NCBI GenBank assembly: GCA_018335675.1
Contig: JAGXRQ010000059.1
Location: 1 to 64,000, forward strand
Direction of reading: 5' to 3'
Origin: Bacteroidota bacterium
GTDB lineage: Bacteria > Bacteroidota > Bacteroidia > Bacteroidales > UBA7960
Length of the DNA stretch: 64,000 nt
Made by a program: the position numbers and the translations under genes. Positions 42,901 to 62,577 of the stretch are shown in pieces; positions within the stretch are counted from its first letter, which is position 1; the number at the start of each line of letters is the position of its first letter. The notes beneath the pieces are model-generated. The model worked only from the letters and a program-made list of their open reading frames with translations, had not been told where the DNA came from and ran no database searches.

Positions 42901-42906
42901 TTTTTA

Positions 42907-46088: not shown

Positions 46089-46093
46089 GTTAA

Positions 46094-46117: not shown

Positions 46118-46132
46118 TGAGATTTGAGCGTA

Positions 46133-46154
46133 ATTCCGACCGTGAGGGAGGGAT
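46133..46154 (+). repeat. 22-nt hairpin element (copy A): GUGA loop with tandem G.A mismatches
   Basis: The plus strand reads ATTCC-GA-CC-GTGA-GG-GA-GGGAT. ATTCC pairs with GGGAT (one G.T), the opposed GA/GA steps form tandem G.A mismatches, CC pairs with GG, and the loop is GTGA (GNRA type). ATCCCGTT continues as in the copy at 62513. The two copies differ by a compensatory pair, so the structure is probably conserved. Confidence 0.7.
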
Positions 46155-46176
46155 CCCGTTGTTCCATGCACCCGTC

Positions 46177-46216
46177 ATCCCGACCGGCCTGTACTGAGCG
46201 AAGTCGAAGTTGGGAT
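46177..46216. repeat. Palindromic intergenic element, 8-bp stem
   Basis: ATCCCGAC (46177-46184) pairs with GTTGGGAT (46209-46216), with one G.T pair. The loop contains TACTGAGCGAAGTCGAAG, a motif I recall from intergenic repeats in many bacterial genomes. It lies between copy A of the 22-nt hairpin and the 35-bp units. Confidence 0.6.
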
Positions 46217-46245
46217 CTTCCGGAAAAAGAGCATTAAACCTGAAG

Positions 46246-46397
46246 CTGGAAATCCCTATCGGGAGTTTCCAGTTCTAGCGTGAGGAACTTCCAGCTTCAG
46301 CGCTAGCGGAACTGGAAGCTTCCAATGAGAGAGTCCCGAACCGGAATTGGAAGCTTCCGACGAAAAAGCACCGAACCCGAAGCTGGAAACTTCAGGG
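46246..46397. repeat. Complex repeat: hairpins and 35-36-bp tandem units with GGAAGCTTCC
   Basis: CTGGAAA (46246) pairs with TTTCCAG (46266-46272) around CCC-TATC-GGG. GTTC and GAAC flank TAGCGTGAG next. From 46308 two tandem units of 35 and 36 bp (GGAAYTGGAAGCTTCC..., ...CCGAACC) and a partial third (GAAGCTGGAAACTTCAGGG) repeat. The ORF track start for bcp at 46347 lies inside these units and is not a real start. The gap 46049-46487 holds no gene. Confidence 0.75.
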
Positions 46398-46487
46398 TTT
46401 TTAAATAACCCCTTTGAACATCATAATACCTCTTTTGTTATAATTGTAAAATCAACAATAAAAAAAAAGCATCAAAACTATAAAAAC

Positions 46488-46943
46488 ATGACACAATTAA
46501 AAATTGGAGATAAAGCCCCTGAATTTTCAGGGAAAGACCAAAACGGAAATCTTATTTCACTTAAAGATTTTAAAGGGAAGAAGGTTGTTATATACTTTTA
46601 TCCAAAGGATAACACTCCGGGCTGTTCTGCTCAGGCCTGTAATTTAAGAGATAACTATGATAGCTTGATGAAGCAGGGATATGTTATTATTGGTGTTAGT
46701 AAAGACAGTCAGAAATCTCATCAAAAATTTATTGAGAAATTTGATTTACCATTTCCGCTTATTGCTGATGAGGATAAAGTGATTCTGAATCAGTTTGGTG
46801 TTTGGGGTCCAAAGAAATTTATGGGAAGGGTTAGTGATGGAATTCATAGGACAACATTTGTTATTGATGAGAAAGGAATGATTTCTGAAATAATTCAGAA
46901 GGTTGATACTGAGGAGCATACAAGTCAGATTCTGAAAAATTAG
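46488..46943 (+). CDS. bcp: Thiol peroxidase, Bcp/PrxQ type
   Basis: A 151-residue atypical 2-Cys peroxiredoxin reducing H2O2 and organic hydroperoxides with thioredoxin. KIGDKAPEFSGKDQNGN opens the fold, and the peroxidatic site YPKDNTPGCSAQACNLRD shows Cys46 and the resolving Cys51 five residues on, typical of the BCP group. VIIGVSKDSQKSHQKF and GRVSDGIHRTTFVIDEKG complete the family pattern. The ORF track start at 46347 adds 47 residues from the repeat cluster; the ATG at 46488 gives the normal length. Confidence 0.95.
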   Translation: MTQLKIGDKAPEFSGKDQNGNLISLKDFKGKKVVIYFYPKDNTPGCSAQACNLRDNYDSLMKQGYVIIGVSKDSQKSHQKFIEKFDLPFPLIADEDKVILNQFGVWGPKKFMGRVSDGIHRTTFVIDEKGMISEIIQKVDTEEHTSQILKN

Positions 46944-46963
46944 AAATTAAAATCATAATGCTT

Positions 46964-46971
46964 TATCTTTG
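46964..46971 (+). promoter_or_regulatory. Candidate -7 box (TATCTTTG) for the TPR-CHAT gene
   Basis: TATCTTTG matches TAnnTTTG and lies 22 bp before the ATG at 46993. It covers the TTG start at 46969 used by the ORF track, so it supports the later ATG. No TTG is seen at -33. Confidence 0.45.
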
Positions 46972-46992
46972 GCAATAAAAAAGATAGGCAAT

Positions 46993-49893
46993 ATGAAGTC
47001 CTTGTTTATTTTAATATTGATAGCGTCATTAGGTTGTAATTTATACAGTCAGGATTGGCGCTATTTTGATTCTCTTCGTGTTGAAAGCCAGACAGTAAAG
47101 AAAGTTGACTCTGCAATTAATTATGGTGAGAAAGCTTTGGAGTTATATACATCAGCATATGGCGAGAATGATACTGTTTATGCTGGTTTGCTTCGCGTTA
47201 TGATGGATTTGCATCAAAGTGCAAAACAATTTTCTCAGGCAGAATTTTATGGAGTGAAAGAATTGAATATAAGAGAAAGAGTTGAGGGTAAATCTACTGC
47301 AAATTATATTGCCGCATGTAATAATCTTGCACTACTGTATAAGGAATTAGGCAATTATTCGCTTGCAGAACCATTATATATTGAGTTTAAAGAACTTGTC
47401 GAGAATTTATACGGAAAAGAACATGAAGAATACGCTGCATCATGCAATAATTTGGCAACTTTTTACCGAGCATTGGGAAGACTATCAGAAGCTGAGCCTT
47501 TATTGATTGAAGCCAGAGAAATTTATGAAAAGCTTTTTGGGAAAGAACATACATCTTATCTTATAATTACAAATAATCTTGGAGGATTATATAGGGCAAA
47601 AGGTAATTATGGAGCTGCGGAGGTTTGTTATACCGAAGTAAAGTCGATTAGAGAAAAACTTCTTGGTAATGAAAATATAGATTATGGGGTGAGTTGTAAC
47701 AATCTCGCTTTGTTATACAGAACAATGGGAAATTATTCAGCTGCGGAACCATTATATATAGAAACAAAAAACATTTTTGAAAAATTACTTGGCAAGCATC
47801 ATCCTTATTATCACTCAATAAATAATAATTTGGCTCTGTTATACAGAACCACAGGCAAGTATGATGAAGCAGAACCCATACTCCTGGAAGCTAAAGAGAT
47901 TTATGAAAAAATATATGGAAAAGAGCATCCAATGTACGCCCAGAGTTGCAATAATCTTGGGGTTTTCTACCGCACTGTTGGTAAATATGATGAAGCAGAG
48001 CCATTGCTGATTGAGTCACGTGAGCTTTATGCGAAAATTCTTGGCAATGAACATTATGATTATGCAAGAAGCTGTACTAATCTGGGTGAAGTATTAAGAA
48101 TCAAAGGGCGATATAAAGATGCTGAAGCGTTATTGATTGAAGCAAAAGCTATTGAAGAAATGGTGCTAGGGAAGGACCATCCTGATTATGCTCAAAGTTG
48201 TCATAACTTGGCCGTTTTGTATGATAACATTGGAGATTATAATTCTTCTAAAAATCTTTTCAATGAGAGCATTGATGTTAAAAACAAAAACATAATTAAA
48301 AACTTCACCTTCCTATCTGAAAGAGAAAAGGAAATGTACTTTAAAACGCAGTCGCCTTTTTTCTCCGATTTTTATTCATTTGCCTTCAGGAATAAAGAAA
48401 AAGATAAAACTATTACTGAACTTGTATATAATAATGTGCTGAGAACAAAAGGATTATTACTTAAATCATCTACTGCGATGAGAACAGCTATAATGAGCAG
48501 TGGAGATAGCGAGTTGATTAAACTTTACGAAAAATGGATAGAGCTTAATGTTGAGATTTCAAAGATATATTCAACAGAGGTTTCTAAAAGAAATATTGAT
48601 GTATCCATAATTGAAGAAAGGGCAAATGAAATTGAAAAAGAATTGGTGAAAAGATCTCAATCATTTAGCGATTTTGATAATTTGCAAAATATTACATGGA
48701 GAAACGTGAAGTCTGGCTTGAAGAAAGGAGAATCAGCAATTGAATTTTTGCATTTTTCACAAAGAAACAATAATGATGACGTGCAATATTATGCATTGAT
48801 AATAAAGCATAATAGCAAGTGTCCTGAAATGTTTTATTTATTTGATGAATCTGAGCTTAGAAGTATAATTGAAGAAGCATCTGTGAATAGTTTGCACAAG
48901 ATAAATTCGGTTTATGGTAAGAATGAAGAGTTTAATAATAAGCTATATAATTTGATTTGGAAGCCAATGGAATCCAAGCTAAAAGCAACAAAAAAGGTTT
49001 TTATTTCTCCATCAGGGTTGCTTCATAAAATATCTTTTGCTGCGATTGCAAAATCAGAGAATGTTTATTTATGTGATCTTTATGATTTGAATAATTTGTC
49101 AGGTACCGTTAACATTGCGTATTCAAACGAGTTTGTATTTGATAAATCTATTGAAATAAGTCTTTTTGGAGGCGTAAATTACAATTCAACCCCTAATGAT
49201 AAGGAAGTTTGGGAGTACCTTGAAGGCACAAAAAGTGAGGTTGTTAGGATTAGTGATATCTTGAGAAAAGATAATTATAATGTTAATTTTTTCTTGGAAA
49301 ATGAAGCTTCAGAAGAAAATCTTAAACAGTATTCAGGCAATATTTTACACATTGCAACACATGGATTTTTCTATCCTGATCCGGAAGAAGTAATACGCAT
49401 GAATGCTTTGGAAATAAAAAAGGGCGATGTAATGTTTAGAGGCACAAATCAAGGGTTTGGAGTGTGGACATATATGAATAGCACTAACCCGCTTATGCGC
49501 TCAGGGCTTGCTTTAGCGGGAGCAAATAGTGTATGGTCAAAACAATTGGCCGATAGTGAAAATGATGGAGTACTTACAGCACAAGAAGTAACAAATCTTG
49601 ACTTAAGTAATACAGGGCTGGTTGTTTTATCTGCTTGCGAAACCGGACTTGGAGATATAAAAGACAGCGAAGGAGTTTATGGGTTACAAAGAGCTTTCAA
49701 AATGGCCGGAGCCAAAATGATTATTATGAGTTTATGGCAGGTTCCGGATAAAGAAACTGAAGAGTTTATGACATTGTTTTATTCGAATCTTATAATGAAC
49801 AATGATGTTAAAGCCTCTTTTAACCTTACTCAGAAGGAAATGCGTAAAAAATATGATCCGTTTTATTGGGCTGCATTTGTTTTGTTGGAGTAA
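46993..49893 (+). CDS. Exported TPR-CHAT domain protein
   Basis: A 966-residue protein with a signal peptide (MKSLFILILIASLGCNLYSQ). From about residue 25 to 440 there are about nine tetratricopeptide repeats of 42-residue period (NNLALLYKELGNYSLAEPLYIE..., kinesin-light-chain style). A linker of helices follows, and the C-terminal 270 or so residues form a CHAT (caspase-like) domain. The His of the dyad is in ILHIATHGFFYPDP, and the Cys is in LVVLSACETGLGDIKDSEGV, followed by the typical LQRAFKMAGAKMIIMSLWQVPD. Both dyad residues are present. The GC in the signal (SLGC) could make it a lipoprotein. Its target is unknown. Confidence 0.9.
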   Translation: MKSLFILILIASLGCNLYSQDWRYFDSLRVESQTVKKVDSAINYGEKALELYTSAYGENDTVYAGLLRVMMDLHQSAKQFSQAEFYGVKELNIRERVEGKSTANYIAACNNLALLYKELGNYSLAEPLYIEFKELVENLYGKEHEEYAASCNNLATFYRALGRLSEAEPLLIEAREIYEKLFGKEHTSYLIITNNLGGLYRAKGNYGAAEVCYTEVKSIREKLLGNENIDYGVSCNNLALLYRTMGNYSAAEPLYIETKNIFEKLLGKHHPYYHSINNNLALLYRTTGKYDEAEPILLEAKEIYEKIYGKEHPMYAQSCNNLGVFYRTVGKYDEAEPLLIESRELYAKILGNEHYDYARSCTNLGEVLRIKGRYKDAEALLIEAKAIEEMVLGKDHPDYAQSCHNLAVLYDNIGDYNSSKNLFNESIDVKNKNIIKNFTFLSEREKEMYFKTQSPFFSDFYSFAFRNKEKDKTITELVYNNVLRTKGLLLKSSTAMRTAIMSSGDSELIKLYEKWIELNVEISKIYSTEVSKRNIDVSIIEERANEIEKELVKRSQSFSDFDNLQNITWRNVKSGLKKGESAIEFLHFSQRNNNDDVQYYALIIKHNSKCPEMFYLFDESELRSIIEEASVNSLHKINSVYGKNEEFNNKLYNLIWKPMESKLKATKKVFISPSGLLHKISFAAIAKSENVYLCDLYDLNNLSGTVNIAYSNEFVFDKSIEISLFGGVNYNSTPNDKEVWEYLEGTKSEVVRISDILRKDNYNVNFFLENEASEENLKQYSGNILHIATHGFFYPDPEEVIRMNALEIKKGDVMFRGTNQGFGVWTYMNSTNPLMRSGLALAGANSVWSKQLADSENDGVLTAQEVTNLDLSNTGLVVLSACETGLGDIKDSEGVYGLQRAFKMAGAKMIIMSLWQVPDKETEEFMTLFYSNLIMNNDVKASFNLTQKEMRKKYDPFYWAAFVLLE

Positions 49894-49984
49894 TCTGTTT
49901 TGATTGTTAAATAATTTACTTTTGGGAAAAAATTTATTTTTCATAGTGATTTAATGAATTAACTTTATGAAAATTTTCGAGATA

Positions 49985-50016
49985 TTGTTTTTGAATAAAA
50001 AATAATATTAATTTTG
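49985..50016 (+). promoter_or_regulatory. Candidate promoter of recA
   Basis: TTG at 49985-49987 is followed by 21 bp and TAATTTTG at 50009-50016, an exact TAnnTTTG. Transcription would start near 50023, giving a leader of about 47 nt. I saw no clear LexA-type palindrome beside it. Confidence 0.6.
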
Positions 50017-50069
50017 AGCCGCAAAATATATAGACAAATACTTAAACTAAATAGATAAAAATTTGAATT

Positions 50070-51092
50070 ATGAGTAAAGAAAAAGAAAAAGCATCGAATG
50101 TGAATGCGGAAAAGATGAAAGCCCTTCAGCTTACTATGGATAAAATCGAGAAGTCGTATGGTAAAGGTTCAATTATGAAGCTGGGAGATTCAGTTGTGGA
50201 GCCTGTAGAAAGTATATCTACCGGATCTTTATCTCTTGATATTGCATTAGGAACGGGCGGTTTGCCAAGAGGTAGAGTGGTTGAGATTTACGGACCTGAA
50301 TCGTCTGGTAAAACAACTTTGGCTATACATGCAATTGCATCTACTCAAAAAGCCGGTGGAATTGCTGCTTTCATTGATGCAGAGCATGCATTTGACAGTA
50401 CCTATGCAAAAGGGCTAGGGGTTGATATTGAAAATCTTTTAATTAGTCAGCCCGACAATGGTGAACAAGCTTTAGAAATAACTGAAAACCTTATTCGTTC
50501 AGGTGCAATCGATATTATAGTTATCGACTCTGTTGCTGCTCTTACTCCAAAGAGTGAGATTGAAGGTGAAATGGGCGATTCTAAGATGGGTTTGCAGGCA
50601 AGATTAATGTCGCAGGCACTTAGAAAACTTACAGGTACAATCAACAAAACCGGTTGTTGCTGTATTTTTATTAATCAGCTAAGAGAAAAAATCGGTGTTA
50701 TGTTTGGCAACCCTGAAACAACCACAGGCGGTAATGCACTTAAATTTTATGCTTCTGTAAGATTGGATATCCGCAGAATTTCCCAGATAAAAGAAGGAGA
50801 CCACGCAGTTGGTAACCGTACAAGGGTTAAAGTTGTTAAAAACAAACTTGCTCCACCCTTCCGTCAGGCTGAATTCGATATCATATACGGACAGGGCATT
50901 TCTAAAACAGGAGAAATAATAGACCTCGCAGTAGATCATAACATTATAAAGAAAGCCGGATCATGGTTTAGCTACGGAGAAACTAAACTTGGACAAGGCC
51001 GTGACGCAGTTAAACAGTTATTAACTGATAATATTGAACTTGCAGAAGAACTCGAACTAAAAGTTAAAGAAGTTTTAAAAGTAGTAAAGTAG
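50070..51092 (+). CDS. recA: Recombinase A
   Basis: A 340-residue RecA, the ATP-dependent strand-exchange protein of homologous recombination. Walker A is [11 protein letters not shown], and the catalytic Glu and Asp lie in [10 protein letters not shown] and [22 protein letters not shown]. Loop 2 follows [42 protein letters not shown]. Length is slightly short of E. coli RecA because the acidic tail is reduced. A strong hairpin follows the stop. Confidence 0.98.
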
Positions 51093-51109
51093 TATACCTT
51101 AGTTAAAAT

Positions 51110-51143
51110 AAGAGGCTGTTGTGTTTTATCACAACAGCCTCTT
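51110..51143. terminator. Strong terminator hairpin after recA
   Basis: AAGAGGCTGTTGTG-type sequence pairs with CACAACAGCCTCTT, giving a perfect 14-bp stem (51110-51123 with 51130-51143) and a 6-nt loop TTTTAT. On the plus strand TTCG follows. It lies 17 bp after the recA stop and 22 bp from the stop of the convergent lipoprotein, so it can serve both. Confidence 0.85.
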
Positions 51144-51165
51144 TCGTTATATCTTAATCTAAAAC

Positions 51166-51996
51166 TTAATCTAAATGATATTCGTATTCAGCAATAATTT
51201 TGTTTAAAACCATATTGCCCTGAGTATCATAACGCCTTTCTCTAATTATATGTGGGTAATTATCTGTATTGGCTTCTGCTGAGTACTTAATTGAATAGGT
51301 ATTCCAGTCAAATTCAGGATATGTGCTACATACCGCATCTAAAACAAAATTTGGATTCAGGCAAGAAATAATGCTAAACAAAGATTCAGTGTAAATATTG
51401 AAATTTCTGAAGATTCTTCTGTATGGGTTTTTTGTTTCACAAATTTTAAAATGATAATATAAAACTACCGATCCATTATTTCTGCTTATCCTTGTGATGT
51501 TTCCTCTTGAATCGTATTGAATGCCTGTTGCAATTATAACTCCATCCTTAAGAATTGAATTTAAAGTGTTGTTATCATAGGCAAAAATATAGTTTGAAAT
51601 GAGACTGCCATTGTGGAATCCTCTAATCTCCATTAAATTGTTGCCTAAAAGACTGTATTCAAATTTTTTTTCATTCTGACTTGCTCCATTCTCTGAAAAA
51701 TAAACGTGATGACTATTGTCTTTAGGAATAATCTGATATTCATAAAGAGGCTCAGTTTCATCTGATTCAGCTTGCCCGTATATTAAAGCAGAACCGGTTT
51801 CACCTCTTACATAATACTCAAGGAATGCTCCGCTCTTAACATTTTGACCGCTGAAGATATCGTATTCCCAAACAGTTAGAAATAATTTTTCCTCCGCCAG
51901 ATCTGTATCATCTGGAGGATTGATAGGGTCTTTTTCACATGAAAAAGCAAAAAACAATGATATCAAAATTACTAAGGCAACGTGAAATCTTTTCAT
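51166..51996 (-). CDS. Predicted lipoprotein of unknown function
   Basis: A 276-residue protein with a lipoprotein signal (VALVILISLFFAFSCEKDP), Cys at about 20 and a proline-rich start. The mature part has short strand repeats recalling YD-repeat wall proteins (IQYDSRGNITRISRNNGS, RRYDTQGNMVLNKIIAEYEY). It is probably attached to the outer membrane. No family recognised. It is convergent with recA across a shared hairpin. The following 324 bp (51997-52320) hold only AT-rich sequence and candidate promoter boxes. Confidence 0.68.
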   Translation of the reverse strand: MKRFHVALVILISLFFAFSCEKDPINPPDDTDLAEEKLFLTVWEYDIFSGQNVKSGAFLEYYVRGETGSALIYGQAESDETEPLYEYQIIPKDNSHHVYFSENGASQNEKKFEYSLLGNNLMEIRGFHNGSLISNYIFAYDNNTLNSILKDGVIIATGIQYDSRGNITRISRNNGSVVLYYHFKICETKNPYRRIFRNFNIYTESLFSIISCLNPNFVLDAVCSTYPEFDWNTYSIKYSAEANTDNYPHIIRERRYDTQGNMVLNKIIAEYEYHLD

Positions 51997-52199
51997 CCAG
52001 TGAAATGATTAGTTAAAAAAAATTTTGTGGCAAAGAAATATTATATTTAAACACAAGTTCAAATTTAAATAAAATTTGTTATAAAACCCAAAACCTCAAA
52101 CACTTTTTTTAAACATTTTTGTGTTTTTCTGTGTATTTGACTATTAACAAGCTGATGCAAAAGTAGTAATTTCGAATTTAAAAAAAATGATTTTTTAAT

Positions 52200-52207
52200 T
52201 ACTTTTG
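52200..52207 (+). promoter_or_regulatory. Candidate -7 box (TACTTTTG) for the S9 peptidase gene
   Basis: TACTTTTG matches TAnnTTTG and lies 121 bp before the ATG at 52321. A second, weaker box (TAATTTCG) is at 52167. The leader between them and the ATG would include the GTG at 52261, which the ORF track used. Confidence 0.35.
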
Positions 52208-52320
52208 AATTCTTATTTTATAGTGAAGAGGTTATTTTGATATAACTAAAAGACGTTACTGTGAATTTTTTAGACAAAAAACTTATTAACAATAAACATA
52301 ATCAACTTAAATCTTTAGAT

Positions 52321-54354
52321 ATGAAAAAACATTTTGACAATTTATTGATAATTGGGATAATGCTGATTTCTTTAGTTTCTCAAGCAAAAACTAAAGTTAT
52401 GACTGCTGAAACTTTATGGGAGTTTGGACGGGTTAGTGATGTACGTATTTCCCCCGATGGAAAAACTATTTTATTTGGAATTACATATTTTGATATTGAC
52501 GCAAACAGAGGCACCAGAAACCTTTATACAATGCCGGTATCAGGGGGCAAGCCTACTCAGATTACAAACACAACCATAAATGAGTTTAATGCTTTGTGGA
52601 GGCCGGATGGGAAAAAAATTGGTTTTCTTAGCAGTGAAAGCGGTAGTGTTCAGCTTTGGGAAATGAATATTGACGGAACGAACAGAGTGAAAGTATCTGA
52701 TATCCCCGGTGGAATTTCAGGTTTTAATTATTCGCCGGATATGAAGAATATTGTATTTTTCAAGAATGTAATTGTTCTTCCGGGTGTGAAAGACTTATAT
52801 CCAGACCTTCCTAAGGCTAATGCCAGAATTTATGATGATTTAATGTTTCGTCATTGGGACCACTGGACAGACAATTCTTTCAATCATGTTTTCATTGCAT
52901 CTTACAATAACAGTGTTGTTGGAGATTATTATGATATAATGGAAGGGGAGCCGTATAATTCTCCATTAAAGCCTTATGGAGGTATGGATCAAATTATTTG
53001 GAGTCCTGATGGACAAAAACTTCTTTATACCAGCAAAAAACTTTTTGGTAAAGATTATGCGGTTAGTACAAACTCTGATTTGTATTTATATGATGTAAAA
53101 TCAAAAGATACAAAAAATATAACCGAGTTTAATAAGGGGTATGATAAAAATCCTGCTTTTTCACCTGATGGAAAGTTTGTGGCATGGGAAAGTATGGAAA
53201 CTGATGGTTTTGAATCAGATAAAACCCGGATAATGATTTTGGATTTGGCAAAGGGTACTTATAAAGATTATACTAAAGAATTCGACCAAAGCTCTTCAGG
53301 ATTTGTATGGTCAGCAAAATCAGACTTTCTTTACTTCATAAGTGGTGTTAAAGCTACTCACCAGATTTATTCTTTGGAGATTAAAACCGGAAAAATAAAG
53401 CAGCTTACCCAAGGCCGCCATGATTACACTTCAATAAACCTTGCAGGAAGCAGCCTGGTTGCAACACAGATGACTATGGCTATGCCTGTTGAAATATTCA
53501 GGATAGACATAAAAACTACTTCTCAAACACAAATCAGTTTTGTAAATAAAGAAATACTTGACAATCTTAAATTAGCAAAAATTGAGGAACGTTGGGTAAA
53601 AACAACCGATAATAAAGATATGCTTGTATGGGTAATTTATCCTCCGGATTTTGACCCTGCAAAAAAATACCCTGCATTATTGTATTGTCAGGGAGGACCG
53701 CAAAGTGCTGTAAGTCAGTTTTTCTCATACAGGTGGAATTTTCAAATGATGGCAGCCAATGATTATATTATTGTTGCACCTAACCGCAGAGGGTTGCCCT
53801 CTTTTGGTCAGGAATGGAATGACCAAATAAGTAAAGATTATGGTGGCCAAAACATGAAGGATTATCTTAGTGCTATCGATGCGTTGAAGCAGGAGCCATT
53901 TGTTGATGAAAATAGATTGGGAGCAGTTGGGGCTAGCTATGGAGGTTTTTCAGTGTTTTGGTTGGCAGGGAATCATGAAAAACGATTTAAGGCATTCATT
54001 GCACATTGCGGAATGTTTAACCTTGAAAGCTGGTATGGCTCAACGGAAGAGTTGTTTTTTGCAAACCACGATATTGGAGGTGCATATTGGGAAAATCCAA
54101 AGCCAAAAAGCTATGAATTTTCACCACATCGTTTTATTGGCAATTGGGATACGCCTATTCTTGTTATACATGGTGAAAAAGATTTCAGAATCCCTTATAC
54201 TCAAGGAATGGAGGCTTTTAACGCTGCTCAATTAAAAGGTATTCCAAGCAGATTTTTGTCTTTCCCTGACGAAAATCACTGGGTGCTTCAACCTCAAAAC
54301 AGTATTCTGTGGCAAAGGGAATTTTATAGATGGCTCGATCATTGGCTGAAATAA
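52321..54354 (+). CDS. Secreted S9 family peptidase, DPP/acylaminoacyl-peptidase-like
   Basis: A 677-residue prolyl-oligopeptidase-family protein. I start at the ATG at 52321, which gives a signal peptide (MKKHFDNLLIIGIMLISLVSQAK); the GTG at 52261 would put 20 charged residues before it. The propeller part shows ISPDGKTILFGITYFD, WRPDGKKIGFLSS and FSPDGKFVAWESME. The hydrolase domain has Ser539 in GASYGGFSVFWLAG, Asp621 in VIHGEKDFRIPYTQG and His653 in FPDENHWVLQ, as in the S9C/DPP groups. It probably releases dipeptides or single residues in the periplasm. It is 2 bp from the VanY gene, suggesting co-transcription. Confidence 0.92.
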   Translation: MKKHFDNLLIIGIMLISLVSQAKTKVMTAETLWEFGRVSDVRISPDGKTILFGITYFDIDANRGTRNLYTMPVSGGKPTQITNTTINEFNALWRPDGKKIGFLSSESGSVQLWEMNIDGTNRVKVSDIPGGISGFNYSPDMKNIVFFKNVIVLPGVKDLYPDLPKANARIYDDLMFRHWDHWTDNSFNHVFIASYNNSVVGDYYDIMEGEPYNSPLKPYGGMDQIIWSPDGQKLLYTSKKLFGKDYAVSTNSDLYLYDVKSKDTKNITEFNKGYDKNPAFSPDGKFVAWESMETDGFESDKTRIMILDLAKGTYKDYTKEFDQSSSGFVWSAKSDFLYFISGVKATHQIYSLEIKTGKIKQLTQGRHDYTSINLAGSSLVATQMTMAMPVEIFRIDIKTTSQTQISFVNKEILDNLKLAKIEERWVKTTDNKDMLVWVIYPPDFDPAKKYPALLYCQGGPQSAVSQFFSYRWNFQMMAANDYIIVAPNRRGLPSFGQEWNDQISKDYGGQNMKDYLSAIDALKQEPFVDENRLGAVGASYGGFSVFWLAGNHEKRFKAFIAHCGMFNLESWYGSTEELFFANHDIGGAYWENPKPKSYEFSPHRFIGNWDTPILVIHGEKDFRIPYTQGMEAFNAAQLKGIPSRFLSFPDENHWVLQPQNSILWQREFYRWLDHWLK

Positions 54355-54356
54355 TT

Positions 54357-55217
54357 ATGTTTGAAAACAGAAAAATTAAAAAGGTGCAGCTTGTGGCAAC
54401 ATTATTAATAATTTTGTCACTGGCTGCAGTGCTTATTATAAAAAACACAAGCAATAAGGCATTAACAAACACATCAAGTTGTGACATCTCTTGCAAGGAT
54501 AAAATCTTAGATGATATATTAAATGATGACATAAATACTTCAAACATTATGACCTCCAAAGAAATTCTAATTGGCAAGATTGATTTTTCAAATGAAACTC
54601 TAGTGTTGATCCCATTGCAGTATGCAAACAGAGAAAGTATTTACATGAACAAAGAGGCTTTTGAAGCATTCCTTGAAATGTATAATGCAGCTGCAGAAGT
54701 TGGAGTAAGTTTGAAGATATTATCAGGATTCAGATCTTTTGAACATCAAAAAACTATATGGGAAAACAAATGGAATGGCAGAGTAAAACTCACGGGAAAC
54801 ATTTCTGCAACTGACATTTCTAATAAACAAAAAAGAGCACTCGAAATACTAAAATTCAGTGCTATGCCAGGCACTTCAAGGCATCATTGGGGAACAGACA
54901 TTGACTTAAACAGTTTGAATAATAGTTACTTTGAAAGCGGTGAAGGTAGAAAGGTTTATGATTGGTTGCTTCAAAATGCAGGCATTTACGGTTTTTGCAG
55001 ACCATATAATGTTAAAGGTAAAGACAGATTAGCCGGATATGAAGAGGAAAAATGGCATTGGTCGTATATGCCTGTTGCAAAAAAATATCTTTCAGACTAT
55101 ATTGAGATAATTACTTATGAAGATATTAAAGGTTTTGATGGACATGAAACGGCAGAAACAGTTCAAGTAATTGAAAAATATGTTATGAGCATAAATCCTG
55201 AATGTAAATACAAATAA
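54357..55217 (+). CDS. D-alanyl-D-alanine carboxypeptidase, VanY/M15B family
   Basis: A 286-residue membrane-anchored zinc carboxypeptidase. One N-terminal membrane segment (VQLVATLLIILSLAAVLII) precedes an exported M15B domain. The motifs are LSGFRSFEHQKTIWE, the zinc site SRHHWGTDIDLNSL (SxHxxGxxxD) and EKWHWSYM with the ExxH pair that completes the site. It would trim the terminal D-Ala of peptidoglycan pentapeptides. I chose the ATG at 54357 over 54330, because it lies 2 bp after the peptidase stop and gives the membrane segment the usual position. Confidence 0.92.
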   Translation: MFENRKIKKVQLVATLLIILSLAAVLIIKNTSNKALTNTSSCDISCKDKILDDILNDDINTSNIMTSKEILIGKIDFSNETLVLIPLQYANRESIYMNKEAFEAFLEMYNAAAEVGVSLKILSGFRSFEHQKTIWENKWNGRVKLTGNISATDISNKQKRALEILKFSAMPGTSRHHWGTDIDLNSLNNSYFESGEGRKVYDWLLQNAGIYGFCRPYNVKGKDRLAGYEEEKWHWSYMPVAKKYLSDYIEIITYEDIKGFDGHETAETVQVIEKYVMSINPECKYK

Positions 55218-55317
55218 GCATTAATATGAAACGAACATGTTTGCGAAAAAACACGAATACCAATGAAAATAGCAAACATGGAGTTCCATCCAACCACTAA
55301 AAACAAATTATTTACGG

Positions 55318-56451
55318 ATGAAACCAACACTTCCTTCATATATCAAGATAGTTGTTATTCTTATAGGAATAACCCTTGCAGTATTTCTAATGATAGAAGC
55401 AAAATCATTGCTTGTTCCTATCCTGATATCAGGATTGCTCGCGGTTTTGATTAGTCCATTTACTTCATGGTTAGAAAAGAACAAGTTCCCAAGATATTTG
55501 GCTGTTTCGTTAAGCTTAATTGCTCTTCTTGTATTGATTGGATTGCTGTTGTTTTTCTTCTATAATCAGGTTCTTAGTTTTGCAAAAGATATTTCTTTTT
55601 TAGAAAGACGAACAACCGAATTGATAAATGAGATAAATGCGCTCATCGAGAAGTACTCAGATGCGGCAATTCCACTATCAATGTCGCAAATGAAAGACGT
55701 TGTTTTTGAGTATATTACTGAAAATATGTCATCTTTAACAAGGGGTAAAATGGCTACTGCTTCTACTCTTACAATGCTGTTTATAATTCCGGTTTATATA
55801 TACCTGTTTCTTTATTACAGGCATTTTCTCATTTCATTCTTGCTTAAAGCATTTGGCGAAAATAATCACGACAGAGTAAATAATGCAGTGCACAAAATAA
55901 GGCAAGTTATAAAGAACTATGTGAAGGGAATGTTTCTGGTAATAATAATTCTTGCAATTCTAAATACTGCAACATTATATGCTTTTGGGATAAAACATGC
56001 TTTGCTGTTTGGAGTTTTTGCAGCAATGTTGAATGTAATTCCATTTTTAGGACCCATACTAGGCTCCGCATTGCCCATTGTTTATGCTCTTCTTACCAAA
56101 GACTCATTATGGTATCCAGTAGGCATTCTGATAAGTTTTTATGTAATTCAGCTTTTTGAAAGCAATTTGTTTACTCCCAAAATTGTTGGAGGCAAGGTTT
56201 CTATGAATCCGCTAATGACAATTTTTGCATTATTTATAGGAAATTTTATTTGGGGATTGGCCGGTATGATATTGTTTATACCTGGATTGGCTATTTTGAA
56301 AGTTGTTTTTGATGAAATTCCGGGCATGGAGCCGTACGGTTACTTGCTTGGAAATGTAAATGAGGAAAAGAAGGAGAAACGCCGAAGAATAGTTGAGGAG
56401 AAAATAAAACAAGTTAGCGCCAAAATTAAGAAAGCCGGTCGTAAGTCGTAA
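55318..56451 (+). CDS. AI-2E family transporter (PerM/YdiK type)
   Basis: A 377-residue membrane protein of the AI-2E transporter (UPF0118) family with seven or eight helices. Marks are the N-terminal VVILIGITLAVFLMIEAKSLLVPILISGLLAVLISPF, the amphipathic middle, RQVIKNYVKGMFLVIIILAILNTATLYAFGIKHALLFGVFAAMLNVIPFLGPILGSALP, and SNLFTPKIVGGKVSMNPLM. Members are named for autoinducer-2 export, but others move Na+/H+ or have unknown substrates, so the name is not a function. The C-terminus is very basic (EEKKEKRRRIVEEKIK). Confidence 0.9.
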   Translation: MKPTLPSYIKIVVILIGITLAVFLMIEAKSLLVPILISGLLAVLISPFTSWLEKNKFPRYLAVSLSLIALLVLIGLLLFFFYNQVLSFAKDISFLERRTTELINEINALIEKYSDAAIPLSMSQMKDVVFEYITENMSSLTRGKMATASTLTMLFIIPVYIYLFLYYRHFLISFLLKAFGENNHDRVNNAVHKIRQVIKNYVKGMFLVIIILAILNTATLYAFGIKHALLFGVFAAMLNVIPFLGPILGSALPIVYALLTKDSLWYPVGILISFYVIQLFESNLFTPKIVGGKVSMNPLMTIFALFIGNFIWGLAGMILFIPGLAILKVVFDEIPGMEPYGYLLGNVNEEKKEKRRRIVEEKIKQVSAKIKKAGRKS

Positions 56452-56476
56452 GTCTGCATTTTTATAAATTAACTCC

Positions 56477-57250
56477 TTATTCTTTATTAATATAATCTGC
56501 CGGATATTCAATTTTTTCCAAAAATAACCCACAAGCCGGCACTGAATAGCCCGCTTTTGTGCGGCTTTTGGCTTTTATGATGTGGTCGAAATCCGATATA
56601 GAGATTTTTCCCAAACCTACATCCACCAATGTTCCGACTATCGCTCTTACCATATTTCTCAGAAATCTGTCTGCTGTAATTTTGAATATCAGTAAATGTT
56701 CATCTTTTATCCATTCTGCCGAAATAATTTTGCAGTTGTTGGTTTTGGTTTGTGTGTTTGATTTTGAGAAACTTGTAAAATCAGTATGTTTGAATAATAA
56801 TTTTGTTGCTGCCTGCATTTTCTCTATATCAAGAGGTCTGTTATTTATCCACGCTCTGCCTTGTAAGAAGGGGTCTTTTTTAGTGCTTATTTGATAATGG
56901 TAAGTTCGGCTTATTGCATCAAAACGTGCGTGAGCATCATTTTTTACAGAGAAGATTTCATGAATTGCAATGTCTTTTGGTAGAATACTGTTGAGTTTGA
57001 AAACAAGATTTTTTTTCGCAATTTTTTCAGGTGAAAGTTTTGTGTCAAAATGAGCAAAGTATTCACGCGCATGAACTCCTGTATCTGTTCTGCCGGCACC
57101 TGTCAAATTTACATCTTCTCTTAAGATAGTATTTAGAGCCTCTTCCAAAGTTTCCTGAACCGTAACATCTCCCGGCTGCTTTTGCCAGCCATGGTAGTTA
57201 GTTCCGTCGTAGGAGAGCTTTATAAAGTATCTATGATTCAAAATAACCAT
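56477..57250 (-). CDS. truA: tRNA pseudouridine(38-40) synthase
   Basis: A 257-residue TruA, which isomerises U38, U39 and U40 in the anticodon stem-loop of many tRNAs. The catalytic Asp lies in GAGRTDTGVHAREYFAHF. NYHGWQKQ and the ARFDAISRTYHYQI and FLRNMVRAIVGTLVDVG segments are diagnostic. The length is normal and the start ATG at 57250 is preceded by a good minus-strand promoter. Confidence 0.97.
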   Translation of the reverse strand: MVILNHRYFIKLSYDGTNYHGWQKQPGDVTVQETLEEALNTILREDVNLTGAGRTDTGVHAREYFAHFDTKLSPEKIAKKNLVFKLNSILPKDIAIHEIFSVKNDAHARFDAISRTYHYQISTKKDPFLQGRAWINNRPLDIEKMQAATKLLFKHTDFTSFSKSNTQTKTNNCKIISAEWIKDEHLLIFKITADRFLRNMVRAIVGTLVDVGLGKISISDFDHIIKAKSRTKAGYSVPACGLFLEKIEYPADYINKE

Positions 57251-57263
57251 TTTATCATTTCAG

Positions 57264-57292
57264 CAAAAATACAATTTTATATTGCACTACAA
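57264..57292 (-). promoter_or_regulatory. Candidate promoter of truA
   Basis: On the minus strand TTG (57290-57292) is followed by 18 bp and TATTTTTG (57264-57271), an exact TAnnTTTG. Transcription would begin a few bases before the truA ATG at 57250. It lies back to back with the kinase promoter. Confidence 0.55.
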
Positions 57293-57315
57293 ATTAAAGA
57301 TAATTCTTAATTTTA
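57282..57315 (+). promoter_or_regulatory. Candidate promoter of the histidine kinase gene
   Basis: TTG at 57282-57284 is followed by 23 bp and TAATTTTA (57308-57315), one mismatch from TAnnTTTG. It would start transcription about 22 nt before the GTG at 57344 and overlaps the truA promoter on the other strand. Confidence 0.4.
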
Positions 57316-57343
57316 CTGCTATTATTGAAATTCTGATTATCCT

Positions 57344-59431
57344 GTGAAAAGATTTTATATTCCCATAAGACTTCGTTTATATTTGCCTGTAAGCTTTATT
57401 ATTACGGTTATTGTAATTGTTATAACTGTTTTTTTTGTGAATAAGTCAATTAACATAATTGAATCCCAAATACTTAATAATCTCGAACTTGAAGTTCAAA
57501 CAATTGAGAAAATGTTTGAGCGCGAAGCTGCATTTAAACTTGAGAAGGTTAAATCAAATCTTAAAGTCGCCTCGGCAGTTTTTAATAGTAGTGATTTTAG
57601 AATTGGGAATGAAGTGCATGATGTGGATGTAAAGAATCAAATTTCAGGTGAATCTCACAAAACAAAACTAAGAAACTGGAAAATTGCGAATAGAGAGCTT
57701 TTTGGTGATGAAGTTTTTGTAGATAGTTTGAAGAATTTGTTTGGAGGAACCATAACCATTTTTCAAAAGATAGACAGTGGCTTTGTCAGAATGTCAACTA
57801 ACGTCCTAACTGCTGAAAATATTAGGGCTGTAGGAACATATATTCCGATGAACTCTCCTGTGATTAAAGAAGTTCTCTCCGGAGAAACTTACTTTGGGCG
57901 GGCTTTTGTTGTTAACGACTGGTATATTACAGCATACCAACCTATATACGTAAGCAATGAAATTGTTGGAATTTTATATGTTGGCGATAAGGAAAAAGAT
58001 CTTGAAGATCTTAAAACCATTTTGCAAAATCTTCAAATAGGAAAAAGCGGATATCCTTTTGTATTTAATAAGGATGGCTATTTATTAATTCATCCTGAAA
58101 GGGAAGGGGAGTTTTGGGGCGATAGTACTTTGTTTCTAAAAGTTAAAGAGATGAAGAATGGACATTTGAAGTATGAATATCAGGGTGAAAATAAAACAAT
58201 GTCGTTCGTGTATTTTGAGCCTTTTGAGATTTATATAGCCGCAGCAGTATTCGATAAATTTGAAACTTATGAGTTAAGAAGAGATACGATTTTTGGAGCA
58301 GTTATAACAGGTGTGTTGTCATTGCTTATTTTATTGGGTTTTATTTATTATTTTACATCAGATCGCATCTATAGGTTTTTTACAGAATTACAGCAGTCAC
58401 AGAAAAAGTTAGATACAGTTAGTCGAGCTTTGGAAGAGTCAGAAGAAAGGTTTAAGAAGCTTTTCGATAGTACTGGAGACGATATATTTGTTACAGATAT
58501 TAATGAGAATATTGTTGAGGTTAATAATGCAGCATGCGAAACACTTGGCTATTCAAAGGATGAGCTTCTAGGGATGAAGATTACTGAAATCAAATCAGAA
58601 AAAGTAAAAGACAAGGTAGCTGAAAACAGGAAAATCATTTACGAGAAGGGTAGTCATTCTTTTGAATCAGAGCATGTTACAAAGAGTGGCGAAATAATTC
58701 AGGTTGAGTTTACAAGCAGGGTGGTTAGTTATGGCGCCGACAAACTTATTCTTAGCGTTGTAAGAAATATTAGCAGTAGGGTTGAGTCTGAAAGGTTGAT
58801 TTTGAGTGCAATAATTCGCGGGGAGGAGAGAGAAAGAGAGAGATTCGCTAAAGAAATGCACGATGGATTAGGGCCATTGCTTTCTACAATAAAATTATAC
58901 GTAAATGAACTTGATTCTTTTTCAATGTCTGAAACGGAAAGAAAAGAGCTTATCAATCACTGCAACGAATTGTTAGACGATGCTGTAAATTCAACAAGGA
59001 CTATCTCCAACAACCTGATGCCAACAGTAATTCATTCATATGGATTGGTTAAGGCAGTTCAGGCTTTTTGTGATAAAGTAAATAAAACAAATCAACTGAA
59101 AATTGCTTTTGAGACCGAAAACATTGAAGAAAGGCTGGAAAGCGATCTTGAATTGATATTTTTTAGAGTTATCAGTGAGCTTATAAATAACACAATCAAG
59201 CATGCTCAGGCGAAAAATATTTATATCATGCTTATCAAATATGAAACTCGGCTGGTTTTATATTTTAAAGATGATGGAGTTGGTTTTGTTGTTGATGAAA
59301 TTGTTAATTCGGAGAACAAGGGGATGGGGTTGAAAAATATAATTAGCAGAGTAAAATCAATAAACGGAAAGTATAATTTTTATAGTTCACCGAGTGCGGG
59401 ATTTACTCTGAAAATTGAGATAACTATTTAA
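57344..59431 (+). CDS. Cache-PAS sensor histidine kinase, NarL/HisKA_3 type
   Basis: A 695-residue membrane sensor. Two membrane segments (about 12-32 and 313-335) bracket an extracytoplasmic Cache-like domain with TIFQKIDSGFVRMSTNVL, YFGRAFVVNDWYITAYQPIY and GKSGYPFVFNKDGYLLIHP. A PAS domain follows (about 370-485; LFDSTGDDIFVTDINENIVEVNNAAC). The kinase part is HisKA_3 with the phospho-His in AKEMHDGLGPLLSTI, then a HATPase with ELINNTIKHAQAKNI, DDGVGFVV and GMGLKNI. It starts with GTG and ends 2 bp before the possible TTG start of the partner regulator. Signal unknown. Confidence 0.93.
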   Translation: MKRFYIPIRLRLYLPVSFIITVIVIVITVFFVNKSINIIESQILNNLELEVQTIEKMFEREAAFKLEKVKSNLKVASAVFNSSDFRIGNEVHDVDVKNQISGESHKTKLRNWKIANRELFGDEVFVDSLKNLFGGTITIFQKIDSGFVRMSTNVLTAENIRAVGTYIPMNSPVIKEVLSGETYFGRAFVVNDWYITAYQPIYVSNEIVGILYVGDKEKDLEDLKTILQNLQIGKSGYPFVFNKDGYLLIHPEREGEFWGDSTLFLKVKEMKNGHLKYEYQGENKTMSFVYFEPFEIYIAAAVFDKFETYELRRDTIFGAVITGVLSLLILLGFIYYFTSDRIYRFFTELQQSQKKLDTVSRALEESEERFKKLFDSTGDDIFVTDINENIVEVNNAACETLGYSKDELLGMKITEIKSEKVKDKVAENRKIIYEKGSHSFESEHVTKSGEIIQVEFTSRVVSYGADKLILSVVRNISSRVESERLILSAIIRGEERERERFAKEMHDGLGPLLSTIKLYVNELDSFSMSETERKELINHCNELLDDAVNSTRTISNNLMPTVIHSYGLVKAVQAFCDKVNKTNQLKIAFETENIEERLESDLELIFFRVISELINNTIKHAQAKNIYIMLIKYETRLVLYFKDDGVGFVVDEIVNSENKGMGLKNIISRVKSINGKYNFYSSPSAGFTLKIEITI

Positions 59432-59442
59432 TTTTGACAGTT

Positions 59443-60093
59443 ATGAGTGGTAATAAAATAAAAGTTTTTATTGTGGATGACCATGAGATATTCAGAAATG
59501 GGTTGAAAATGGTTTTAGGCAAACTTAAATATGTTGAGCTTGCAGGTGAAGCAGAAAATGGCAAAGAGTTTATAGATAATCTATGCGAAACATTGCCCGA
59601 TATAGTTTTGATGGACATCGAGATGCCTATACTTAATGGAATTGAAGCATCCAAAGCTGCATTGAAGCTTCATCCAAAGTTGAAAATTATTGCCCTAACA
59701 ATGTTTGGAGATGATGAATATATTCAGAGCATGATGGATGTTGGTGCTAAAGGGTTTCTTATGAAAAACATCAATAAAGAAACTCTGGATAAAGCCATTC
59801 TTACAGTAAATAATGGAGGAAATTATTACTCAGAAGAATTATTCGAGTTTTTTACAAAACAGTTTTCTAAAGAGAAAGAATCGCCAGAGTCAGAATTAGA
59901 TCTTACAAGAAGAGAAAAAGAAATTTTACAGCTACTTTGCGAAGGTTTGAGTAATAAGGAAATTGCTGATGCTCTTTTTATTAGCGAAAGAACAGTACTT
60001 GGTCATAAAACAAACCTTTTGACTAAAACGAATACCAAGAATTCATTGAGCTTGATGGCGTTTGCTATTAAGAAGAAGTTGGTGGTTATTTAG
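59443..60093 (+). CDS. Response regulator, NarL/LuxR family
   Basis: A 216-residue response regulator. The receiver domain has KVFIVDDHEIFRNG, the phospho-acceptor Asp in DIVLMDIEMPILNGIEAS, the Thr in IIALTMFGDD and the Lys in GAKGFLMKNI. A LuxR-type HTH follows (LTRREKEILQLLCEGLSNKEIADALFISERTVLGHKTNL). I use the ATG at 59443; a TTG at 59434 would add three residues. It is the partner of the adjacent kinase. The stop codon TAG at 60091 ends in the first base of a heptamer array. Confidence 0.95.
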   Translation: MSGNKIKVFIVDDHEIFRNGLKMVLGKLKYVELAGEAENGKEFIDNLCETLPDIVLMDIEMPILNGIEASKAALKLHPKLKIIALTMFGDDEYIQSMMDVGAKGFLMKNINKETLDKAILTVNNGGNYYSEELFEFFTKQFSKEKESPESELDLTRREKEILQLLCEGLSNKEIADALFISERTVLGHKTNLLTKTNTKNSLSLMAFAIKKKLVVI

Positions 60094-60144
60094 GTATTAG
60101 GTATTAGGTATTGGGTATTGGGTATCTGGTGTCGGGTATTAGGT
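60093..60144. repeat. GGTRTYR heptamer array between convergent genes
   Basis: Seven units run without gaps from 60093: GGTATTA, GGTATTA, GGTATTG, GGTATTG, GGTATCT, GGTGTCG, GGTATTA. The regulator stop (TAG) overlaps the first base, and the hydE stop (TAA on the minus strand, 60139-60141) falls in the last unit. The two genes therefore both end in the same array. Confidence 0.95.
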
Positions 60145-61215
60145 TGTTCTTCCTAGAAATCTTTTAGAATCGCCCCATTCTCCGTAGCCGATTTCAGCTC
60201 CGGCGAGTTTGATTCGGCCTTCTATGCAGTTTGCGCAGTCTTCGGAACTTTCGTCTGTGCAAGGTTTATTCTCGTATAATTTGTAACTGTCGCGGTAAAT
60301 TCCGGGTGTTATATTCGGCATAAGGATGTTGGCGCCAATGCGTATGGCTTTTTCTCTTCCAATTTTATCAATTGCTTGCAAGGCAGTAGTGGCGGCAATA
60401 TTAATATCTTGCATCATTATTCTTAAAATTGCAACCATCTTTAAGGCCAACCTGAATCTTTCCTCTAAAGGAATTAGGTTGTTTCTTTCTGAATATAAAG
60501 GAGTATCAGCATGTTCAATGTATGGTCCCATTCCACACATATCAATATCCTTTTCCTTCATAAATAATAAATCATCAGCCAGATGCTCTACGGTTTGGAA
60601 AGGTAGTCCTATCATTACTCCCGTTCCAATCTGGAAACCAACTTTTCTCAGTAAGGATAGGCATTCAAGTCTTTTTTCAAAACTGTGATTGTTATCATTG
60701 GGATGCAATTTTGCATAAAGCTCTTTATTTGATGCCTCAATACGGAGCAGATATCTGTGAGCCCCTGCGTTATACCATCTTTGATAAACGTCCTCTGTCT
60801 GTTCGCCACAGGAAAGCGTAATTCCTAATTTTCCTCCTGAAAGTTCTTTTATCTGTTTAACAAGATTTTCGATTCTATCAGAATTATTTGAGCTTTGAAT
60901 TTCGCCCGACTGTATTACAACTGAGCCATAGTTGCTTTTTAATGCAAACTTTGCAGCTTCAATAACTTCATTATCACTTACATTATATCTTTCAACTTTT
61001 TTATTATCTCTCCTAATGCCGCAGTAGTAACAGTTTTTCGAGCAAATATTTGATAATTCTATTAACCCTCTTAGATAAACTTTGTTTCCAACATTATCAT
61101 TCTTAACTTGGGATGACTTCTCAAACAATAACCTTAGATCATCACCTTCTGCTAAAAGCAGTTTAACAATATCCTGCTTATTCAAGTTATCTTTATTTAA
61201 GATATGACTAATCAT
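60139..61215 (-). CDS. hydE: [FeFe] hydrogenase H-cluster maturase HydE (radical SAM)
   Basis: A 358-residue radical SAM enzyme that helps build the diiron subsite of the H-cluster. The SAM cluster Cys58, Cys62 and Cys65 are in CSKNCYYCG. ASNKELYAKLHPN, GVMIGLPFQTVEHLADDL and DMCGMGPYIEHADTPL fit HydE. Near the end, C-x7-C-x2-C (CTDESSEDCANC) is the optional second cluster of this family. I use the ATG at 61215 (MISHIL), which overlaps the hydF stop by 8 bp; the ORF track start at 61263 would be inside hydF. Its stop lies in a heptamer array. Confidence 0.95.
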   Translation of the reverse strand: MISHILNKDNLNKQDIVKLLLAEGDDLRLLFEKSSQVKNDNVGNKVYLRGLIELSNICSKNCYYCGIRRDNKKVERYNVSDNEVIEAAKFALKSNYGSVVIQSGEIQSSNNSDRIENLVKQIKELSGGKLGITLSCGEQTEDVYQRWYNAGAHRYLLRIEASNKELYAKLHPNDNNHSFEKRLECLSLLRKVGFQIGTGVMIGLPFQTVEHLADDLLFMKEKDIDMCGMGPYIEHADTPLYSERNNLIPLEERFRLALKMVAILRIMMQDINIAATTALQAIDKIGREKAIRIGANILMPNITPGIYRDSYKLYENKPCTDESSEDCANCIEGRIKLAGAEIGYGEWGDSKRFLGRTT

Positions 61216-62419
61216 TATTGTATAAAGCTTTAAAAGGTTGAGTAACTCTTTCGAAAATTCCATTTACCCATGCTATAGCCATTCCATAGTTTGTAATTGG
61301 AATATCTGCATGTTCAAATGGTTTTAAACGTGAAATGATTTGTTTACGTGTAACCATACAACCTCCGCATTGAATTACCAGAGCGTAATTATTTACCGGA
61401 TTATTAACGGCTGATAACCCCGCAACAATGTCGAATTCGAGTTTTTTTCCAGTATGTTTTTCTAGCCATTTCGGAATTTTAAACCTTCCAATATCGTCGC
61501 AACTAACATGGTGAGTGCATGATTCAAGGATAAGAACTTTATCGCCGTCTTTTAAATTATCAATTGTCGGGGTTCCTTTAAGAAATGCATCAAAATCTCC
61601 TCTTAACTTGGAGAAAACAATGCTGAAACTTGTGAGCATTATATTTTCCGGAACTATTTTAGAGACGTAATTAAACACCTGACTGTCGGTAACAACAAGT
61701 GCTGGTTTTATTCCCAACTTAAAGAAATCTTCCAACTCAGTTTCTTTTACAGAAACGCAAATACAATCATTATCCAAAACATCTCTCCAGGCCATTACCT
61801 GAGGAAGTATCATTCTTCCTTCAGGAGCTTCGGAGTCGATTGGAGTAACAAGTAATACAACGTCTTTGGGTTTAACAGTGCCTTTAAATAAAGAAGGTTT
61901 TGCATATGCTGTTTCAGGAATGCTTGTTTTAATTAATTCAACTAGTTCATTGAAATTTTCAGGTTTAACATTGCTGAAAGAGAAGGGTATCTTGCCAGTA
62001 ATTTGCTTTACATTATCAGAGAATTCTAGTTTTATAGCCTCGATATCTGATTTGTTATGCACTATTAAATATGGGATATCATAATAGTTAAATTGTTTTA
62101 CCAGATTTTCTTCAAATTCTCCGAAAATATTTGCAGCAATAAGAATTATTCCCAAATCTATTGTAGGAATTACTTGCAGTGTTTTCTCAATTCTTAGCTT
62201 GCCAAGATCTCCGCTGTCATCTATTCCGGCTGTATCAATAATAATTGCAGGACCTACACCGAAAATCTCAACTGATTTTTTAACCGGATCGGTTGTTGTT
62301 CCAGGATGGTCGGAAACAATAGCTATATTTTGCCCTGTAAGCAAATTGATGAAAGAGCTTTTACCATTGTTTCTTCTTCCAAAAATTCCGATATGTGGTT
62401 TTAAATCTTTGCCTTTCAT
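61208..62419 (-). CDS. hydF: [FeFe] hydrogenase maturation GTPase HydF
   Basis: A 403-residue HydF, the scaffold that carries the 2Fe precursor to apo-hydrogenase. The GTPase domain has GRRNNGKSSFINLLTG, HPGTTTDPV, DTAGIDDSGDLG and HNKSD. The dimerisation region follows. The C-terminal FeS site is formed by Cys and His in ESCTHHVSCDD and by CGGCMV near the end, the CxH...CxxC pattern of HydF. hydE overlaps its stop by 8 bp. A 158-bp gap with a heptamer array and hairpin lies between its start and hydG. Confidence 0.96.
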   Translation of the reverse strand: MKGKDLKPHIGIFGRRNNGKSSFINLLTGQNIAIVSDHPGTTTDPVKKSVEIFGVGPAIIIDTAGIDDSGDLGKLRIEKTLQVIPTIDLGIILIAANIFGEFEENLVKQFNYYDIPYLIVHNKSDIEAIKLEFSDNVKQITGKIPFSFSNVKPENFNELVELIKTSIPETAYAKPSLFKGTVKPKDVVLLVTPIDSEAPEGRMILPQVMAWRDVLDNDCICVSVKETELEDFFKLGIKPALVVTDSQVFNYVSKIVPENIMLTSFSIVFSKLRGDFDAFLKGTPTIDNLKDGDKVLILESCTHHVSCDDIGRFKIPKWLEKHTGKKLEFDIVAGLSAVNNPVNNYALVIQCGGCMVTRKQIISRLKPFEHADIPITNYGMAIAWVNGIFERVTQPFKALYNND

Positions 62420-62427
62420 TGAATTTA

Positions 62428-62504
62428 GGTATTAGGTGTCAGGTGTTAGGTATTAGGTGTCAGGTGTTAGGTATTAGGTGTCAGGTATCAGGTATCAGGT
62501 GTCA
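62428..62504. repeat. GGTRTYA heptamer array with 21-bp higher-order period, inside the hyd cluster
   Basis: Eleven heptamers run without gaps: GGTATTA, GGTGTCA, GGTGTTA, GGTATTA, GGTGTCA, GGTGTTA, GGTATTA, GGTGTCA, GGTATCA, GGTATCA, GGTGTCA. The first three repeat as a 21-bp block. It begins 9 bp before the hydF start on the upstream side. Confidence 0.95.
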
Positions 62505-62512
62505 GGTAGGTC

Positions 62513-62534
62513 ATTCCGAGCGTAAGCGAGGAAT
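62513..62534 (+). repeat. 22-nt hairpin element (copy B): GUAA loop with tandem G.A mismatches
   Basis: The plus strand reads ATTCC-GA-GC-GTAA-GC-GA-GGAAT. ATTCC pairs with GGAAT, GA faces GA, GC pairs with GC, and the loop is GTAA. ATCCCGTT follows as in copy A at 46133. It lies 9 bp after the heptamer array, in the gap between hydF and hydG, antisense to the hyd genes. Confidence 0.7.
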
Positions 62535-62577
62535 CCCGTTATTATTCATTCTATTTAAATTAAGCCAAACCTCATTC

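Follow-up and report, generated by a model that had tools for sequence, protein, structure and literature searches.

The question raised by this locus is what kind of element its two short hairpins belong to and how they are copied. The window, a stretch of 64,000 nt from a Bacteroidota bacterium (contig JAGXRQ010000059.1 of assembly GCA_018335675.1), carries both on its forward strand, and an earlier note made from the letters of this DNA had described them correctly in position and sequence. Several lines of evidence indicate that they are units of a non-autonomous dispersed repeat of the CGTC-tagged REP (repetitive extragenic palindromic) type, which would be copied, in the form of one folded DNA strand, by an enzyme whose gene lies elsewhere; we give this reading a probability of about 0.6. 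Each copy has a tag, a hairpin and a tail, the tags and the second tail being read directly from the sequence:

46129–46132, plus strand: tag of copy A in the degenerate form CGTA (family consensus C/T-GTC)
46133–46154, plus strand: hairpin of copy A, ATTCC-GA-CC-GTGA-GG-GA-GGGAT, with one G.T pair (covariance model 42.2 bits, E 2.4e-11)
46155–46172, plus strand: tail of copy A, CCCGTTGTTCCATGCACC, which is the spacer type between head-to-tail units in the source genome (same type at loci L044, L045, L049 and L053)
62509–62512, plus strand: tag of copy B, GGTC, one base from the consensus
62513–62534, plus strand: hairpin of copy B, ATTCC-GA-GC-GTAA-GC-GA-GGAAT (covariance model 49.5 bits, E 4.2e-14)
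62535–62543, plus strand: tail of copy B, CCCGTTATT

The motif does not occur only twice, the outcome that the earlier note had named as contrary to its claim. In the 3.4-Mb source genome a relaxed pattern matches 36 copies, versus 0 in the reversed control. A covariance model run across the genome, a check that the note had proposed, and built here from 25 variants recovers about 60 copies with covarying stem pairs (71 matches at E ≤ 1, approximately 62 at E < 1e-4). Within the window no third site lies at three or fewer mismatches from the pattern, and 100 shuffles gave 0 matches. Read on the tag strand, the unit is ~30 nt long and comprises (C/T)GTC, a variable 5-bp stem starting with A-T, a G-A step, a 2-bp inner stem, the loop, and return arms with a second G-A, the stem thus being 5 bp, tandem G.A and 2 bp. 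The tag is CGTC or TGTC in 44 of 46 copies from the source genome, the first stem pair is A-T in 25 of 25 variants and the second T-A in 21 of 25, and CCCGTTG follows the return arms in this genome. Longer variants have an enlarged inner part, for example GTCATCTCGAACGGAGCGATAGCGGAGTGAGAGATC.

Units of the source genome occur singly, head-to-tail (HT) with spacers like that following copy A, and as inverted dimers whose tags face outwards (head-to-head, HH; REPIN-like). The inverted dimers enclose a 22–24-nt spacer like CCGTTGWTWAGCGCTCAWCRACGG that is common to unrelated sites, and the counts by arrangement are HH 11, HT 9 and tail-to-tail (TT) 3. Many copies sit within composite repeats that duplicate as blocks; one 200-bp composite, 100% identical at two places 7 kb apart, ends on one side at a tag. 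Units are found on both strands and in every gene arrangement (14 convergent, 14 divergent, 4 sense and 4 antisense).

The stem is maintained through paired changes. In the 25 source-genome variants (alignment A3) 97.7% of cells pair and 32 cells are changed on both sides, and the covariation score of 0.507 compares with 0.205 ± 0.025 after shuffling (0 of 500 shuffles reach it) and with at most 0.191 for slid structures. A second alignment, composed of 13 source-genome loci retrieved after model building together with copies from two other genomes (G205 and G391), is 98.2% paired and scores 0.452 versus 0.151 shuffled, figures that lean towards the model because the alignment was fitted to it. 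In a model-free test with the 7–8-nt core left free in ~30 genomes, the first inner pair is formed in 85 of 109 cases versus 38 ± 4 when shuffled, the second inner pair being almost invariant and hence uninformative for covariation. A core search across phyla with the arms left free found them fully complementary in 84 of 100 cases versus 24% shuffled; the complementary arm pairs were of eight different kinds. The conserved fold that the earlier note had proposed for the tagged strand is thus borne out by compensatory pairs in further copies, with covariation in the source genome, in other Bacteroidota and across phyla.

The distribution of the element is wide. Of 396 genomes sampled from the same phylum, 119 carry the relaxed pattern (52 of 172 genera), with up to 143 copies per genome and 0 in the reversed control; that 396-genome sample held no close relative of the source genome. 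When both the arms and a loop base are free, the core search reaches at least 15 phyla by record title: Bacteroidota, Acidobacteriota, Nitrospirota, Nitrospinota, Planctomycetota, Omnitrophota, Chloroflexota, Desulfobacterota, Bacillota, Fibrobacterota, Pseudomonadota (alpha), Gemmatimonadota, Patescibacteria, Verrucomicrobiota and Armatimonadota. The records are mostly metagenome-assembled genomes, and a single archaeal record is possibly misbinned. C or T precedes GTC in 137 of 147 of the cross-phylum tags, and the dimers are HH 35, TT 10 and HT 4. Tails are CCC in the source genome, mostly CTC or CTT elsewhere, and CCA in some relatives. The free-arm core hairpin is also found in many IMG/VR viral contigs (L326–L405), for which prophage flanks and true phage copies are the alternatives. 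In genomes G391 and G205 (loci L200, L201 and L204), half-units (GTCATTCCGAGC plus ~11 nt, with no return arm) lie in tandem just upstream of full units.

The loop speaks to the nature of the folded strand. The earlier note had called it GNRA, which proves too narrow: its ends are G..A in all 25 source-genome variants, but the third base is a purine in only 10 and a pyrimidine in 15 (GTTA, GTCA, GCTA). Where both inner pairs are formed in other genomes, loops are GNA in 29 of 45 and GNNA in 13 of 19, 4 of the latter being GNRA. Loop length is four nt in the main type of the source genome, three in most relatives and longer in some variants, and the exact d(GCGNAGC) tip is present in many genomes. 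DNA mini-hairpins in which two G-C pairs close a GNA or GNNA loop are known for extraordinary stability and resist nucleases, d(GCGAAGC) melting at 78 °C (PMC4686876). The hairpin tips copy this fold, and we infer that the GNNA/GNA rule favours DNA over RNA, a preference that standard folding parameters do not reflect. The GA...GA arrangement is symmetric only within one folded strand and has no dyad in duplex DNA. Because only the tag strand forms the G.A pairs, and because the loops follow the DNA rule and not the RNA GNRA rule, selection or a copying process would act on the tag-bearing strand folded as single-stranded DNA. This strand may be exposed as a single strand during replication, DNA uptake or a similar process, and an enzyme encoded at another locus could then recognise the exposed hairpin and insert it.

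An RNA-level element, with RNA structure under selection as a stabiliser of mRNA 3′ ends, an attenuator or a protein site, appears unlikely, although more probable than the other alternatives. The stem covariation is also compatible with RNA, copy B is predicted to fold as drawn both as DNA and as RNA, and only 1 of 200 shuffles gives a better RNA fold. In other genomes convergent gaps exceed divergent ones and sense modestly exceeds antisense, with open reading frames (ORFs) called mechanically. Against such a role stand the loops, which break the RNA GNRA rule in being GNYA in most source-genome variants and GNA triloops in most relatives. Moreover, copy B lies antisense to the genes on either side, the source genome has equal convergent and divergent counts and equal sense and antisense counts, HH dimers join both orientations, and the Rfam search found no match at the gathering score in the window or the copies. 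Orientation relative to genes is, on the whole, weakly informative.

Several observations nevertheless count against copying of a folded DNA strand. No insertion event and no empty/filled strain pair was seen, and no mobilising enzyme was found at the Y1 transposase loci and in the Pfam neighbour scans described below. Nearest-neighbour folding scores the hairpin better as RNA than as DNA, with parameters that are not trusted for G.A steps and GNA loops, and loops of A..A or another form occur in some relatives. Where the adjoining genes are codirectional, the tag strand coincides with the sense strand in ~36 cases versus 22 antisense, which leaves room for an RNA role.

Mobilisation by a Y1 tyrosine transposase whose gene is flanked by the hairpins it moves, as in the GTAG REPs with their REP-associated tyrosine transposases (RAYTs), is improbable. 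The source genome does encode four Y1_Tnp genes, and a hairpin with a short unpaired tag resembles the GTAG REPs. The likeness to REPs that the earlier note drew holds for the class of element, that is, a CGTC-tagged REP with dimers, but fails for RAYT: the hairpin flanks none of 73 Y1 loci (4 in the source genome; 29 strong Y1 and 40 RAYT-like ones in hairpin-rich genomes). No hairpins surround the four genes of the source genome, and the 69 further loci have essentially none nearby, with stray matches in three and in no case on both sides of the gene. A Y1 match is present in 42 of 57 hairpin-rich genomes and lacking in 15, one of which has 114 copies and is 99% complete, flagged as 13% contaminated. 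The frequency is similar in genomes without the strict pattern (42 of 65, mostly of the same families). For CGTC repeats of other species, Di Nocera, De Gregorio and Rocco (2013) had the same outcome and linked no transposase to them (PMC3733652). A Pfam scan of the nearest ORFs of ~60 Bacteroidota loci and 80 pan-bacterial loci gave no recurring recombinase or transposase beside the hairpins among the 25 most frequent families, which belong to ordinary genes. RAYT/Y1 as a dedicated cis-linked system is thus largely refuted, and a linked Y1/RAYT transposase dedicated to the element seems not to be the mover. One further candidate, a mobile gene between inverted dimers at 10829–12710 of contig C133, turned out to be an ordinary thioredoxin-like gene.

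Y1 genes have their own repeats around them, many of these being short palindromes (GCCCTACGGGC, CCGCGTAGCGGC, GAAACCACGGG, GCCCTGAAAGGGC), at L006, L007 and L008 in the source genome and at L091, L094, L095, L097, L100, L105, L110, L111, L114 and L115 elsewhere. Those of the source genome have the Y...Q..HH signature of TnpA subclass 1.2, which has been described as lacking REPs (PMC6006769); the repeats around the Y1 genes may be REPs of that subclass.

A duplex DNA site for a chromosomal protein, retained where useful like the REP sites and bacterial interspersed mosaic elements (BIMEs) of E. coli, seems still less probable. Intergenic position and clustered dimers are BIME-like, but the arms vary freely yet in concert, where a duplex site would retain one sequence, and the GA...GA symmetry exists only in the folded single strand. 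An inert relic, spread only as repeat-rich intergenic DNA duplicates and recombines and without an active mechanism, would account for the many copies within block-duplicating composites but is very improbable given paired changes maintained in at least 15 phyla and dimers with a common spacer at unrelated sites.

The preferred reading, a REP-type repeat that is copied in folded, single-stranded form, invites comparison with known systems. The element is a variant of the CGTC-tagged REPs (PMC3733652), with which it shares the C/T-GTC tag, a stem starting with A-T, intergenic location, and heterogeneous stems with complementary changes. In both, HH dimers predominate and no transposase gene flanks the repeats, and Bacteroidetes is among the phyla listed for the earlier families. 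The published description sets the two apart by the tandem G.A interruption of the stem here versus uninterrupted stems of 8–9 bp, whose first two pairs are A-T, in the 2013 families. Loops are GNA or GNNA of 3–4 nt here versus 4–5 nt there, with exceptions listed in that paper; tails are CCC or T(C) versus mainly CCA; head-to-tail units are common in the source genome, unlike in the CGTC REPs; and the range is at least 15 phyla versus 5 (PMC3733652). The 2013 screen dropped repeats with more than one stem mismatch, dimer partners excepted (PMC3733652), a filter likely to remove the tandem G.A class and one that may explain the narrower range of phyla. The dRS3 repeat of Neisseria, which is classed as CGTC-1, belongs to the same super-family by its tag and A-T-closed stem (PMC3733652), but family 1 is described with an uninterrupted 8-bp stem and a 4-nt loop. 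The GTAG REPs with RAYT (REPtrons) are alike in their short tagged hairpins, dimers, intergenic location and single-strand structure, and differ in having GTAG or GTGG 5′ of the hairpin instead of C/T-GTC and in their Y1/RAYT linkage, which was not found here. The DNA mini-hairpins d(GCGNAGC) and GNNA of Hirao and Yoshizawa (PMC4686876) have the same fold as the tip of most units; these are known from synthetic oligonucleotides and parts of aptamers, whereas here the fold stands in a natural, repeated genomic element.

What moves the CGTC-tagged REPs has been a question since their naming in 2013. The present results provide a precise structural definition for the element, a link to a fold from DNA chemistry, a predicted active strand and a much wider range than reported, and they argue against a Y1 transposase as the cis-linked mover. 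A literature search for the literal sequence gave no paper describing the element, and as far as our searches show neither the structural definition nor the DNA-type loop rule nor the wide range has been described before. We offer more tentatively the broader possibility that one class of single-stranded DNA hairpin, with a tagged stem, tandem G.A and a mini-hairpin tip, occurs in the majority of bacterial phyla, with a widespread enzyme, perhaps one with a housekeeping role, as its so far unrecognised mover.

The tandem arrays that the earlier note had seen beside both copies are present, and that of copy A can be assigned to a recurring composite. The following features adjoin the copies:

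46092–46119, plus strand: AATGTGCC array upstream of copy A (tandem-repeat search)
46173–46216, plus strand: second tandem unit, with a CGTC tag at 46173–46176 and a stem at 46177–46216 (sequence and pattern match)
62425–62507, plus strand: AGGTATC/TTAGGTGTC array adjoining copy B (tandem-repeat search)

The AATGTGCC array belongs to a composite found again next to other copies in the genome, positions 46092–46186 matching 14286–14193 of L045 at 79%. The second unit, absent from the earlier note, starts 18 bases past the stem of copy A and has an 8-bp stem (ATCCCGAC/GTTGGGAT) with one G.T and a long loop; the covariance model gave no match at this unit, which the pattern search did match. Of the two window copies, A is the weaker, with its decayed tag and a predicted minimum-free-energy fold as DNA that differs from the hairpin. 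A GGAAGCTTCC-rich repeat adjoins it at 46238–46393, is partly a 35-bp tandem (46307–46393) and recurs at L054 and L198. The array type of copy B is present without hairpins at 42904–42951 and 60090–60144, and 7-bp TTAGGTA/AGGTATC arrays, which in the window cover 42902–42992, 60088–60144 and 62423–62507, recur genome-wide with an adjoining hairpin only sometimes. Elsewhere in the source genome, four units stand within the reading frame of an 1852-aa PKD-domain gene (L044:6801–7009, on G000:C133), from which translation into protein would follow; the genome also encodes a Por_Secre_tail domain of the type IX secretion system (T9SS) type, which points to Bacteroidota as its phylum.

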